From Pseudomonas sp. R5-89-07 (GTDB lineage: Bacteria > Pseudomonadota > Gammaproteobacteria > Pseudomonadales > Pseudomonadaceae): a stretch of DNA of 64,000 bases. Location of the stretch: NCBI RefSeq assembly GCF_003851685.1, contig NZ_CP027727.1, forward strand, positions 5,146,001 to 5,210,000. The letters run 5' to 3'. A model generated the notes under the pieces. The model did not search any database and was not told the origin of the DNA. It was given only the letters and a program-made list of their open reading frames with translations. Both the position numbers and the translations under genes were made by a program. Of the stretch, positions 718-56,791 are shown piece after piece (position 1 is the stretch's first letter; each line of letters opens with the position of its first letter).

Positions 718-3700
718 TTGTCCAAAGTCACGCCGCCAACGCCCTTGCGCGCCGCTCATATAGCGCCGGGCGCGCCCCTGCACGGTACCCTCAAAGGCGC
801 GTTGGCGACGCTCGTGCTGATGTTGCTCGCGTTATTGTTCTGGCAACTGCTCGACCAACTGCAGCAAAACCAGAAAAACCAGCAGCAATACACCATCGAC
901 TACAGCGCCGACCTGGCCGAGCAGATCAGCCAGAACATGGCCTTGAGCGCGCAGATCGCCTTGAATCTGCTGCCGATCGTCGAGCCGCCGCGCAACCCCG
1001 AACAACAACAGGCCCTGATCCGCTCGTTGCAGCGCTCATTACCCGAGCTGCGCAGCTTCGCCCTGCTCGCCCCCAGCGGCGCACTGATCAGTGATACCGC
1101 CAACGACAGCCAGGACAGCGCCCTGCTTGAAGAGCTGGTCAAGCGCAGCCACGCCCAAAACTATTACCTGAGCAACGACAGCGAGGGCGCCGTCATCTAC
1201 CTGTTGCTGCACCAGCCCAGCGGCGGGTCGAAAATGTACTGGGCGCTGCGCCTGGCGCCCACCTACCTGGCTAACCTGACTCGCCAGGATGCCCAGGGCC
1301 AACGCCCGATGTGGGCGATCGAGAACCGCCTGAACCAGCGCGTGGTCAGCCGTGACAACGGCATGCCGGCACCGTGGGCCAGTGCGTTGACTCCGGACGA
1401 GCTGAATAAAACCGTGCTGGTCACACCGTTGAGCAAGAGCGACTGGCAACTGCGCGGGCTGTTCGACCGCAACGCAGTACTTGAACAACTGCTGCCTGCG
1501 TTTATCGGCAAATGCCTGTTGGGCCTGGCTTTTTCGCTGGTCCCAGTGATCGTGCTGCTGAACATGCGCCGTCGCCAGCGCCAGGTGCATGAAGGCCGGC
1601 GACGCTATCAGGATATTTTCGAAGGCACCGGCGTGGCCTTGTGCGTGCTCGATCTTTCGGGGCTTAAGGCGTTCTGCGACAAGACCCAGGTGCAGAGCCC
1701 TGAACAATTGCACACCTGGCTGGGGGCCAACCCCATTGAGCGCCGTAAACTGCTTAAAGAGCTGCGCGTCACCGAGGTCAACCAGATGGCGGTGCGCCTG
1801 TTGAACGTGGGTTCCTGCGAGGAAGCCTGGGAGCGCCTGATTGACGACTCTCCACGCAATGCCACTTCTATCGGCACCCAGGTGCTGGAAGCCGTACTGA
1901 CCCGGCAAAAACAGTTGGAGTTGGAGATCCAGCTCAACGATGTGGCGGGCAATGAACAGTACCTGTGGCTCGTGATGCGCTTGCCGGAACAGCAGGATGA
2001 CGTGCGCGCGGTGATCCTCAGCATCAGCGATATCACCAGTCGCAAGCTGATCGAGCTGTCGCTGGTCGAGCGCGAGAGTTTCTGGTCGGACGTGGTGCGC
2101 ACCGTGCCCGATCACCTGTATGTGCAGGACGTGATCAGCCAGCGCATGATTTTCAGCAACCATCACCTAGGCCATACCCTCGGCTACAACAAGGCCGAAC
2201 TGCAGAAAATGGGTGAGTACTTCTGGGAAATCCTGCTGCACCCCGAAGACGCCGAGCATTACCACGACTCGCGTCAGCAGCAACGCCAGATGGGCTACGC
2301 GACCCAACTGCACTGCCAGTTGCGCTTTCGTCATCGCAATAACCAGTGGCGACGCTTCGATATCCGCGAACAGGCCCTGGCCAGGGACACGTCGACCGTG
2401 GTCACGCGGATCATCGGCGTGGCCAAGGACATCACCGACCAGATCGAGGCCAGCGAATCCCTGCGCGACAGCGAGCAGCGCTACCGCATGCTGGCTGAAA
2501 GCATCAGTGACGTGATCTGTTCCACCGACAGCCAACTGGCCCTCAACTACGTCAGCCCCTCGGTCAACGCCGTGCTGGGGTACGACGTGGACTGGGTGTT
2601 CAAGAATGGCTGGCAGTCCGTCATTGCCAACCCGCAACAGCTCACCGGTATTTATGCGCTGATGGAGCAGGTCAGCCGCGCCGTGGGCAATCCGGAAGCA
2701 TTGAACAGCCTGCGCGATGAGGTACAGACCCAACTGTTCCTGTTCGACTGCCTGCGCGCCGACGGGCGCAAGGTGCCGATCGAGCTGCGTGTGGTGCTGG
2801 TGTGGGACGAACATGGCGCGTTCGAGGGCATCCTCGGCGTGGGCCGGGATATCAGCCAGCAACGCCGTGCCGAAAAAGACCTGCGCATGGCGGCCACGGT
2901 GTTCGAGCACTCCACCTCGGCGATCCTGATCACCGACCCGGCCGGCTACATCGTGCAGGCCAACGAGGCCTTCAGCCGGGTCAGCGGTTACGCCGTGAGC
3001 GATGTACTCGACCAGCTGCCGAACATGCTCACCGTCGATGAACAGCAAGAAGCCCACCTGCGCTACGTGCTCAAGCAATTGCACCAGCACAGCACCTGGG
3101 AAGGTGAAGTGTGGCTCAAGCGCCTTAACGGCGAGCACTACCCGGCCTGGGTCGGCATCACGGCGGTGTTCGACGATGAAGGCGACCTGGCCAGCTACGT
3201 GTGTTTCTTCAGTGATATCAGCGAACGCAAGGCCAGCGAACAGCGCATCCACCGCCTGGCCTATTACGACGCCCTGACCCACCTGCCCAACCGCACCCTG
3301 TTCCAGGACCGCCTGCACACCGCGCTGCAGTCGGCCGAGCGGCAGAAGTCATGGGTGGTGCTGATGTTCCTCGACCTGGACCGCTTCAAGCCGATCAACG
3401 ACTCCCTGGGCCACGCCGCTGGCGACCGTATGCTCAAGGAAATGGCCACACGCCTGCTCGGTTGCGTGGCCGAAGACGACACCGTGGCGCGCATGGGCGG
3501 CGATGAGTTCACCTTGCTGTTGCAGCCACGCGTCAGCCGCGACATGGCGCTGAACCGTGCAATCACCGTGGCCGAGCAAATCCTGGCCAGCCTGGTGAAG
3601 CCGTTCGTGCTGGAAGGCCGCGAGTTCTTCGTCACCGCCAGCATCGGCATCGCCCTGAGCCCTCAGGACGGTAACGAACTGAGCCAACTGATGAAAAACG

Positions 3701-9807: not shown

Positions 9808-10176
9808 ATGACCGAGCAAGCGTCTGATCGCCGCCGTTTTCGCCGGATTGCCTTTGACGCCAAGACCGAGCTTCGGCAAAACGGACACGAATGGCCGGTG
9901 CAGTTGGTGGATTTGTCGCTCAAGGGTTTATTGGCGAAGCGGCCTGAAGACTGGAAAGGCAATAAGGCGCTGCCGTTCGACGTCGATATACGCCTGGACC
10001 CGAAGGCTCATATAAAGATGCAGGTACGCCTGACCCATGAAGAGCATGATCAGTTGGGCTTTGTGTGCCAACACATCGACCTGGAATCGATCAGCCATCT
10101 GCGACGGTTGATCGAATTGAACCTGGGCGACGAAGAGGAACTGCATCGCGAGTTAGCGGCATTGCTGGAAATCTAA
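9808..10176 (+). CDS. mapZ: PilZ-domain c-di-GMP receptor (MapZ-type)
   Basis: Small cytosolic PilZ protein (122 aa). The two c-di-GMP motifs are visible: RRRFRR near residues 8-13 and DLSLKG near residue 36. In P. aeruginosa the homologue in this position (PA4608, next to radA and cstA) binds c-di-GMP and blocks the chemotaxis methyltransferase CheR1. I chose the ATG at 9808, after GAGGA, over a longer frame because MTEQASDRRRFRR is the compact PilZ start. It sits 5 kb from morA, a likely source of its ligand. Confidence 0.92.
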   Translation: MTEQASDRRRFRRIAFDAKTELRQNGHEWPVQLVDLSLKGLLAKRPEDWKGNKALPFDVDIRLDPKAHIKMQVRLTHEEHDQLGFVCQHIDLESISHLRRLIELNLGDEEELHRELAALLEI

Positions 10177-10195
10177 CATTCAGCACAGATCAAAA

Positions 10196-10283
10196 TGTGG
10201 GAGGGGGCTTGCCCCCGATGGCAGTGTGTCAGGCACTTATAGGTCACTGATACACTGCCATCGGGGGCAAGCCCCCTCCCACA
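10196..10283. repeat. REPIN (family A)
   Basis: Complete inverted pair of TGTGGGAGGGGGCTTGCC-type REPs between the convergent genes mapZ and radA. Confidence 0.93.
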
Positions 10284-53886: not shown

Positions 53887-54780
53887 ATGACCAGCAGTCC
53901 CGAACACGCCAGGCTCCTGCGCCTGGCCACCCGCGCCTCGGTGGGCGTGGCCTGTGTGCTGATCATTACCAAGGCCATCGCCTGGTGGTTCAGTGGCTCG
54001 GTGGCCATGCTCGCCGGCTTGACCGACTCGCTGCTCGACGGCGTAACTTCGCTGCTCAACCTGCTGGCGGTGCATTACGCCCTGCGCCCCGCCGATGACG
54101 ATCACCGTTACGGTCACGGCAAGGCTGAGTCACTGTCGGGCATGGCCCAGGCGCTGTTTATCGGCGGCAGTGCAGTGTTGATTGCGTTCCAGGCGTATCA
54201 ACGTTTGCAGCACCCCGAACCCGTGGGCGCGCCCTGGCTGAGCATTGGCGTGATCGTGTTTTCACTGGCGCTGACCGTGGCGTTGCTGATGCTGCAACAT
54301 CGGGTGATCCGCGAAACCGGCTCCAACGCGGTGCGCGCCGATTCGCTGCATTACCGCTCCGACCTGATGCTCAACGGCAGCATCCTGGTGGCGCTGGTGC
54401 TCGCAGGTTTTGGCTTCCATCAGGTGGACGCTTGGTTTGGCCTGGGGATTGCCGCTTACATCCTGTGGAGCGCCATCCAGATCGCCCGGGAAAGCTTTGC
54501 CGTATTGATGGACGAAGAGTTGCCGGTGGATATCAGCCAGCACATGCTCGACCTGGCCCGTGGCGTACCGGGCGTACTGGGTGCCCATGACTTGCGCACG
54601 CGGGTGTCCGGCAACCACTGGTTCGTGCAGTTGCACCTGGAATTGCCGGGGGAGCTGACGTTGTCAGTGGCACACGGCATCAGCGACCAGGCCGCCGATG
54701 CCATTCATCAGGCCTACCCGAAGGCCGAGGTGCTGGTGCATGCCGACCCGCAGGAAGTGGTCACTGGCGCCAAGGCCTAA
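53887..54780 (+). CDS. fieF: Cation diffusion facilitator FieF
   Basis: Metal/proton antiporter of 297 aa exporting divalent cations (iron, zinc). The first metal half-site is LTDSLLDGVTSLLNL and the second ADSLHYRSDLMLNG, as in E. coli FieF, together with the signature DDDHRYGHGKAESLSGMAQ. A cytosolic C-terminal domain follows from about residue 208. Its stop overlaps the stop of the convergent DUF6515 gene. Confidence 0.93.
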   Translation: MTSSPEHARLLRLATRASVGVACVLIITKAIAWWFSGSVAMLAGLTDSLLDGVTSLLNLLAVHYALRPADDDHRYGHGKAESLSGMAQALFIGGSAVLIAFQAYQRLQHPEPVGAPWLSIGVIVFSLALTVALLMLQHRVIRETGSNAVRADSLHYRSDLMLNGSILVALVLAGFGFHQVDAWFGLGIAAYILWSAIQIARESFAVLMDEELPVDISQHMLDLARGVPGVLGAHDLRTRVSGNHWFVQLHLELPGELTLSVAHGISDQAADAIHQAYPKAEVLVHADPQEVVTGAKA

Positions 54781-55790: not shown

Positions 55791-55889
55791 GCTTTTCCTC
55801 ACTGCGGATTAGGGCTTGATCATGAGACTGGAAAAGCCTCGCCCGGTTCTGAGAGAGGTTATCAGTCACGAGAACTATTTTCTTGAAGG

Positions 55890-55922
55890 AAAAGAAAAGG
55901 GGTGACCCGTCGGCCACCCCTT
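55890..55922 (-). terminator. Rho-independent terminator of the candidate small RNA
   Basis: On the minus strand: AAGGGGTG stem, 10-base loop, CACCCCTT, then TTTTCTTTTCC. It lies 100 bp upstream of the DUF6515 start codon and points the same way. Confidence 0.8.
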
Positions 55923-56146
55923 GAGAATTTCGTCCTGGCTCAACGCTTTTGACGTTGGCTCACCTCACGCCGTCTTCTGGACAGTGTGCAGCCTGGAGGC
56001 CGGCTCAACCCTGCTGGGGTGGCGGCCGCAGCGGGCCTGATTGGGCCCGCTGCAGTGGACTGTTGTCCAGGCGGTGATTCTGTTGATAAAGATACCTGCC
56101 TGCACCCGACGGATGATTGCGAAGATTGCGTCAATAAACAGTGCTT
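55890..56146 (-). ncRNA. Candidate structured small RNA
   Basis: No convincing gene lies in the 416 bp between DUF6515 and the Lrp-type gene, yet the minus strand carries a possible promoter (TTGCGG at 56183-56178, 18 bp, TTAAAA at 56159-56154), a perfect 10-bp hairpin GCAGCGGGCC/GGCCCGCTGC (56053-56028), a smaller CAACG/CGTTG hairpin near 55945-55960, three TGAGCC motifs and a rho-independent terminator. The transcript would be about 255 nt. It could be a free small RNA or a leader that stops before DUF6515. Confidence 0.4.
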
Positions 56147-56206
56147 GCGCAATTTTTAACCCTTCATGGATAATTAACCGCAATAGTTACGACAAAGGCT
56201 AACCCA

Positions 56207-56686
56207 ATGAGCAAGCTTGACCGATACGACCTGAGTATTTTGGCGGAATTGCAGCGTGACGCACGGATCTCCAACCAGGAGTTGGCCGAGCGTATCGGCC
56301 TGTCGCCTTCGCCCTGCTCGCGCCGGGTCAAGCAATTGGAGGACGACGGCTACATCGCCCGTCAGGTTGCGCTGCTCGACCGCAAGATGCTGGGCCTGAG
56401 CCTGACCGCCTACGTATTGATCGGCATGGACCGGCACACCCCGGAACGTTTCGAGAATTTCGAAGCAGCCATCCGCACCCTGCCCCAGGTGCTGGAATGC
56501 AGCCTGGTGACCGGGATGGATGCCGACTATCAGTTGAAAGTGGTGGTGCCGGACATGGACCACTATCAGAAACTGCTGCTGGGCCATCTGACCCGGATTG
56601 AAGGCGTGACCAGCGTGCGTTCAAGCTTCGTACTCAACCAAGTCTTGAACAGTACCGAACTGCCCCTGACTCACCTGCGCACCTGA
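56207..56686 (+). CDS. Lrp/AsnC-family regulator
   Basis: Transcription factor of 159 aa. The N-terminal helix-turn-helix runs from KLDRYDLSILAELQRDARISNQELAERIGLSPSPCSRRVKQLEDDGYI; the C-terminal RAM (amino-acid sensing) domain spans residues 65-145. It is not the dadA-linked Lrp or BkdR by context. It is divergent from the candidate small RNA, which it might control. Its targets are unknown. Confidence 0.92.
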   Translation: MSKLDRYDLSILAELQRDARISNQELAERIGLSPSPCSRRVKQLEDDGYIARQVALLDRKMLGLSLTAYVLIGMDRHTPERFENFEAAIRTLPQVLECSLVTGMDADYQLKVVVPDMDHYQKLLLGHLTRIEGVTSVRSSFVLNQVLNSTELPLTHLRT

Positions 56687-56702: not shown

Positions 56703-56791
56703 TGTGGGAGGGGGCTTGCCCCCGATGGCGGTATGTCAGCCAGTACTGCACCAACTGACACTCAGCTATCGGGAGCAAGCCCCCTCCCACA
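56703..56791. repeat. REPIN (family A)
   Basis: Inverted pair between the Lrp-type gene and DUF2788; the right core is altered (GGGAGC for GGGGGC). Confidence 0.92.

Follow-up and report, generated by a model that had tools for sequence, protein, structure and literature searches.

Small RNA P24 beside a divergent Lrp-type regulator gene in Pseudomonas sp. R5-89-07: conserved layout, predicted promoter and possible modes of action

The small RNA P24, filed in Rfam as family RF00629, is said to go back to a paper by Livny from 2006. P24 of P. aeruginosa is located in the gap between PA3964 and PA3965, and the accessible part of a study of 77 P. aeruginosa isolates gives it an increase of 3.6 log2 in the core biofilm transcriptome (PMC6954232). 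For the same gap, a 202-nt RNA named sRNA10 was predicted from RNA-seq of P. aeruginosa CF_PA39, and the available sections of that report describe a 2.35-fold lower level at low shear, a condition with robust biofilms (PMC4981712), which is opposite in direction to the biofilm induction of P24 (PMC6954232). PA3965 is listed, in the portion of the source at hand, as one of nine Lrp/AsnC regulators in P. aeruginosa, a family with binding sites that display periodicities of 7-8, 18 and 30-31 bp (PMC8707732). In addition, the excerpted text of a Cpx study places two predicted CpxR sites relative to PA3965, at -315 and -326 (PMC12802237). A literature search returned no functional study of P24 and no description of a link between Lrp and P24; P24 was not named in the Hfq and sRNA literature found, including the main text of an Hfq interactome paper, nor in the main text of sRNA reviews and of a biofilm transcriptome paper.

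The window analysed here is a stretch of 64,000 nucleotides of the Pseudomonas sp. R5-89-07 genome (NZ_CP027727.1, positions 5,146,001 to 5,210,000), in which a gap of 416 bp separates the ATG of a DUF6515 gene (55790) from the ATG of an Lrp-type regulator gene (56207). A preliminary description, made from the letters alone, had proposed for the minus strand of this gap a structured transcript that would be either a small RNA or a regulated leader of the DUF6515 gene. The features discussed below are collected in Table 1.

Table 1. Positions of P24 and of associated features in the window
Feature	Position	Strand	Basis or remark
Predicted P24 transcript, about 195 nt	55887..56081	-	Start by conservation; 3' end is the T run of the terminator
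Rfam RF00629 match	55899..56152	-	cmscan; about 70 nt at the 5' end probably promoter DNA, not RNA
P24 intrinsic terminator	55888..55922	-	11-pair stem and T-rich tail; covariation
GGAC, 3' arm of possible pseudoknot	55932..55935	-	Co-retention with GUCC
Hairpin of the preliminary description	56028..56053	-	Perfect repeat of 10 bp; invariant alignment columns; compensatory changes in consensus helices
GUCC, 5' arm of possible pseudoknot	56057..56060	-	Co-retention with 3' GGAC
Predicted -10 element TATCTT	56089..56094	-	TAnnnT conservation in 90 loci
Box 4, GCAAT at -39	56116..56120	-	Likely regulator site, overlaps -35 region; exact in 72/90 loci
Box 3, GCAAT at -48	56125..56129	-	Exact in 75/90 loci
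Box 2, ATTGC at -72	56149..56153	-	Within TTGCGCAA; exact in 73/90 loci
Box 1, ATTGC at -103	56180..56184	-	Exact in 75/90 loci
Lrp/AsnC-family regulator gene, divergent from P24, constant neighbour	56207..56686	+	Pfam HTH_24, HTH_AsnC-type and AsnC_trans_reg above cut-offs

Identity and fold of the RNA

The covariance search with Rfam that had been recommended in the preliminary description matched the minus strand of the gap to RF00629 (Pseudomonas sRNA P24) over the full length of the model (cmscan, positions 1-255 of 255), with 254.9 bits and an E value of 1.7e-72 against a gathering score of 100. RF00629 was the sole family to reach its own cut-off within the window, two further matches seen below the cut-offs each lying far beneath their gathering scores. 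Its consensus structure is preserved in the window copy with few non-standard pairs in the cmscan alignment, and nothing was found that excludes membership. To judge from this match, the stretch is almost certainly P24, present once in the source genome; as P24 is already catalogued, the RNA itself is not new. The preliminary description had been mistaken in holding the transcript to be unlike any Pseudomonas small RNA known to it, RF00629 being absent from its list, and its reading as a small RNA is strengthened by this match, by the presence of P24 across most of the sampled family and by covariation.

The predicted transcript is strongly structured, beyond chance. Its folding energy is -98.5 kcal/mol, compared with -71.0 (sd 4.8) kcal/mol in shuffled sequences (z -5.8), and none of 200 shuffles was as stable. 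Covariation was assessed in an alignment of 43 predicted transcripts from relatives, the window copy among them, in which 26 of the 35 consensus pairs had both partners altered in one or more sequences. The covariation score amounted to 0.380, versus 0.213 for shuffled and 0.06-0.12 for slid alignments, and paired cells to 94.1%, versus 85.5% shuffled and 30-51% slid, the consensus structure having been derived from the same 43 rows and thus being favoured over the slid versions. The perfect 10-bp hairpin with a six-base loop noted at the outset is borne out (arms 56028-56037 and 56044-56053); few stretches of the RNA are as well conserved as its loop region, GCC-CAATCA-GGC, and the compensatory changes looked for in its stem were seen in the consensus helices across relatives. 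Similarly, the intrinsic terminator is present where it had been placed, as a minus-strand stem (55922-55897) followed by TTCTTTTCCT, and for each of the eight pairs of its main helix one or more of the 43 relatives had both bases changed, although by pattern alone such a terminator does not exceed chance (1 in 2 kb versus 1.7, sd 1.3, expected in shuffles). The three TGAGCC copies on the minus strand of the gap, which had also been pointed out, are present in the window and are not conserved, three copies being found in 6 of 90 homologous RNAs and none in 44.

A pseudoknot is possible as well. The GUCC and the 3' GGAC were both retained in 52 of 63 aligned relatives, neither in 8 and one only in 3; in one of those 8, CUCC is found paired to GGAG instead. 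The number of compensatory rows was one. The co-occurrence of GUCC was stronger with the 3' GGAC (Fisher 1e-7) than with the 5' GGAC (0.018), both values being uncorrected for kinship, and pairing with the 5' GGAC was set aside for its weaker co-occurrence. Pairing of GUCC with the 3' GGAC would cross helix 1, which makes a pseudoknot possible. Paired cells reached 96.6%, versus 9-64% in slid versions, in a 63-row alignment that was fitted to the model and leans towards structure. Covariation alone was higher in the slid versions (0.103 versus 0.029), and between 6 and 46 of 500 shuffles did as well on the pseudoknot measures taken alone. The candidate pseudoknot is thus suggested by paired cells and joint loss, with few changes.

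Predicted promoter and the divergent Lrp-type gene

The start of P24 was placed by comparison of 90 aligned loci, consisting of the 29 closest and 61 others, 50 of the 90 being from the genus of the window. The predicted +1 is an A in 99% of these loci, located 7 nt after a conserved TAnnnT (-13 to -8) with its T, A and T conserved in 96, 94 and 94%, respectively. Further upstream are four ATTGC/GCAAT boxes; the full set was exact in 52 of the 90 loci, spread over 7 of the 15 genera, and at least three of them in 77 loci and 10 genera, the conservation figures of boxes and promoter being inflated by the relatedness of the genomes. Mean identity was 0.918 in the 20 box columns and 0.591 in the 82 other columns of the spacer. 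The near-invariant A, the TAnnnT and the boxes at fixed distances point to a likely start at 56081, which implies that the first 70 or so positions of RF00629 are probably promoter; the upstream limit of 56146-56190 given in the preliminary description is corrected accordingly to a likely start near 56081. Of the promoter that had been supposed there, a conserved -10 element stands in the 90 loci, whereas a consensus scan of both strands for sigma-70-type promoters gave no hits (0.5 expected) and did not pick TATCTT, so that the evidence for the promoter is its conservation.

The product of the gene on the other side of the boxes has E. coli Lrp (2gqq) as its closest solved protein (E 1.7e-35), and its score of 139.9 is under the NCBI cut-off of 233 for Lrp proper. 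PA3965 is presumably its ortholog, given the listing of PA3965 among Lrp/AsnC regulators (PMC8707732) and synteny. When the window proteins were searched with tblastn, 46-68 bp separated the Lrp match and the 5' end of the Rfam match in 89 of the 90 aligned loci; the same distance was found in 60 of 61 oriented P24 loci from 60 genomes, the exception being the second copy in genome L145. That genome carries two P24 copies on the minus strand (3392-3584 and 10011-10203), about 6.6 kb apart; the 3' GGAC is lost in the copy beside the Lrp gene and kept in the distant one. Among 80 named Pseudomonas loci, selected by closeness of the Lrp protein, P24 was upstream of the Lrp gene in all 80, and the distance from the Lrp ATG to the predicted P24 start was exactly 126 bp in 76 and 169-170 bp in 4. 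Judged by genomic position, P24 and the divergent Lrp-type gene are linked by a near-fixed layout.

The four boxes are probably Lrp sites, and control of the P24 promoter by the neighbouring Lrp protein is rather likely from their placement. By eye, Box 1 is near the likely transcript start of the Lrp gene and Box 2 at its likely -35, which suggests self-repression of Lrp. A search of the source genome with a short double box gave 3 places, versus 2 for a reversed control pattern, and hence no regulon was obtained. On its far side, the Lrp gene is followed by two inverted copies of a highly abundant intergenic repeat (56704-56790), presumably REP/REPIN-like; the 16-base core of this repeat has 914 exact occurrences in the genome (443 and 471), and 20 occurrences within 2 mismatches in the window versus 0.11 expected.

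Distribution of P24

From the family, 298 genomes were sampled; 253 of these gave a P24 match at E<=1e-3, 149 being over the cut-off. Re-examination of 31 genomes with weak or missing matches gave 25 matches at E<=0.1, a loose level at which 2 of 14 control genomes also matched. A transcript-only model, built from the 43 relatives and devoid of the boxes, scored the window copy at 171.5 bits and recovered, at the expected place, 17 divergent copies (L182-L198) that had not been used in its construction; the weakest of these, L198, reached 15.9 bits, chance matches elsewhere going up to 20 bits (L056). The Lrp gene was present in all 11 examined family genomes that were devoid of an initial match at E<=1e-3. 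With filters off, 4 of them yielded copies next to the Lrp gene with the transcript model (19.7-47.3 bits), and a fifth, which had already matched at E<=0.1, gave a weak match of 15.9 bits beside Lrp. No accepted P24 match beside the Lrp gene was found in the other six (L252, L253, L258, L259, L260 and L261), indicating that the regulator does not need P24. These six genomes measure 2.2-3.3 Mb and keep the Lrp ortholog, P24 being apparently lost or unrecognisable; a 14.6-bit match overlapping the Lrp start in L259 was not counted as P24.

In an order-wide search with the transcript model, 17 of 293 genomes gave a match, and 11 of these belong to the same genus or family. The remaining six, from other families (23.5-30 bits) were at loci with no Lrp match and were treated as chance; within the genus, L217 had a 25.7-bit match away from any Lrp match. 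As this search missed two family genomes that match Rfam (G015 and G031), it does not prove absence elsewhere. As far as sampled, P24 appears confined to the family. For RF00629 itself, these data suggest that the model might be shortened on its 5' side and that divergent members escape its cut-off.

Possible modes of action and comparison with known systems

Taken as a whole, the observations are best explained, with good though not full confidence, by P24 being a stand-alone sRNA that acts in trans and has its promoter under the control of the neighbouring Lrp-type protein. Transcription would run from near 56081 to near 55887, yielding the RNA of about 195 nt. The Lrp-type protein would bind the four boxes in the shared 126-bp region, where it would hold back its own promoter and switch that of P24. 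P24 would then act in trans, with base pairing as the most likely means; its conserved hairpin loop CCAAUCAG and its 5' end would make the contacts, and Hfq would be bound to the U-rich tail. For base pairing as the mode of action, we put the chances at about even. A search of 5 genomes with the perfect complement of the conserved loop revealed no shared target: the loci of 30 of the 38 matches were compared, and nothing but P24 itself recurred, besides a 19-nt match away from the motif.

The strongest competitor to base pairing, unlikely in our view yet deserving attention, is a protein-binding or scaffold RNA that pairs with no mRNA and serves as a decoy for Hfq/Crc, RsmA or another RNA-binding protein. 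Such a role would suit an RNA that is heavily folded over nearly its whole length, with a possible pseudoknot and with CCCAAYCAGG occurring twice in 23 of 90 relatives. Decoys of the RsmX/Y/Z type carry many GGA motifs exposed in hairpin loops. P24 differs from these: in 72 of 90 relatives it has 2 to 4 GGA motifs, of which one lies in part within a consensus helix, and it gave no Rfam match to those families at the cut-offs.

The leader put forward as one option in the preliminary description, in which P24 and its terminator would control read-through into the gene of the exported DUF6515 protein, fares much worse and is very unlikely. DUF6515 is indeed downstream of P24 on the same strand in the window, and of the 29 closest loci 28 have it nearby and 1 gave no match, a count that slightly raised the odds of a leader. 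Among the other 61 loci, however, it was within about 0.9 kb in 16 and further away in 4, no match being found in 41; over all 90, this amounts to DUF6515 close downstream in only 44 and no match in 42, bearing in mind that tblastn at E<=1e-4 over stretches of a few kb could miss diverged copies. Downstream of P24 in 36 of those 41 loci is FieF, on the opposite strand and within 200 bp in 21. In the window, a FieF-like cation efflux gene of the CDF family (53887-54780) lies beyond DUF6515. Even in the loci with no DUF6515, conservation extends to the RNA as well as to its start and terminator. Of the two options raised at the outset, the small RNA therefore stands and the leader is weakly placed by synteny: with a near-constant Lrp neighbour and a variable downstream gene, P24 is tied more closely to the Lrp gene than to DUF6515.

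It is highly improbable that the conservation reflects promoter DNA and operator of the Lrp gene only, with no functional RNA. As this explanation would have it, some 70 nt of RF00629 probably belong to the promoter, yet a model of the transcript that lacks the boxes finds divergent copies in place, the consensus pairs covary, and RNA from the PA3964-PA3965 gap has been reported for P. aeruginosa in the accessible parts of two studies (PMC6954232, PMC4981712). Least probable of all is a small protein encoded by P24, since the several short open frames in the window and the stop-closed ATG frame of 2 to 55 codons in 20 of 90 relatives are set against 43 of 90 predicted RNAs with no ATG, 70 of 90 with no stop-closed ATG frame (ATG starts only) and two open frames of the window with no Pfam match.

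Returning to P24 as an sRNA acting in trans, we tentatively propose, at somewhat less than even chances, that the Pseudomonadaceae possess an ancient Lrp-sRNA module with P24 as its RNA arm, in which a pseudoknotted RNA is driven from a promoter with four fixed Lrp-type boxes. If true, one presumably amino-acid-sensing regulator gene would carry its own post-transcriptional effector. P24 is a widespread RNA for which no function was found in print, and the present analysis adds testable handles on its control and action, namely the linkage to the Lrp gene, the boxes, the revised start and the candidate pseudoknot.

Compared with the Rfam family, the predicted start of the window copy is situated about 70 nt inside the 5' end of the model, and divergent copies in the same genomic place score below the RF00629 cut-off. 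The setting may be the same as in P. aeruginosa, where P24 lies between PA3964 and PA3965 (PMC6954232) and PA3965 is of the Lrp/AsnC family (PMC8707732), both according to the portions at hand, the window copy likewise adjoining an Lrp-type gene. sRNA10 comes from the same gap, and its 202 nt are close to the predicted 195 nt and shorter than the Rfam model; this comparison is by gap and length, the accessible text marking sRNA10 as a new prediction not experimentally validated, giving neither strand nor ends and drawing no link to P24 (PMC4981712). As to regulation, the nearest parallel is PA2577-PA2576, for which the available part of the source describes an Lrp/AsnC gene acting on its intergenic region (PMC8707732); the same is predicted here, with Boxes 1 and 2 being 31 bp apart. 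The two systems differ in that the target of the former is a transporter gene, whereas the putative target in the window is an sRNA.
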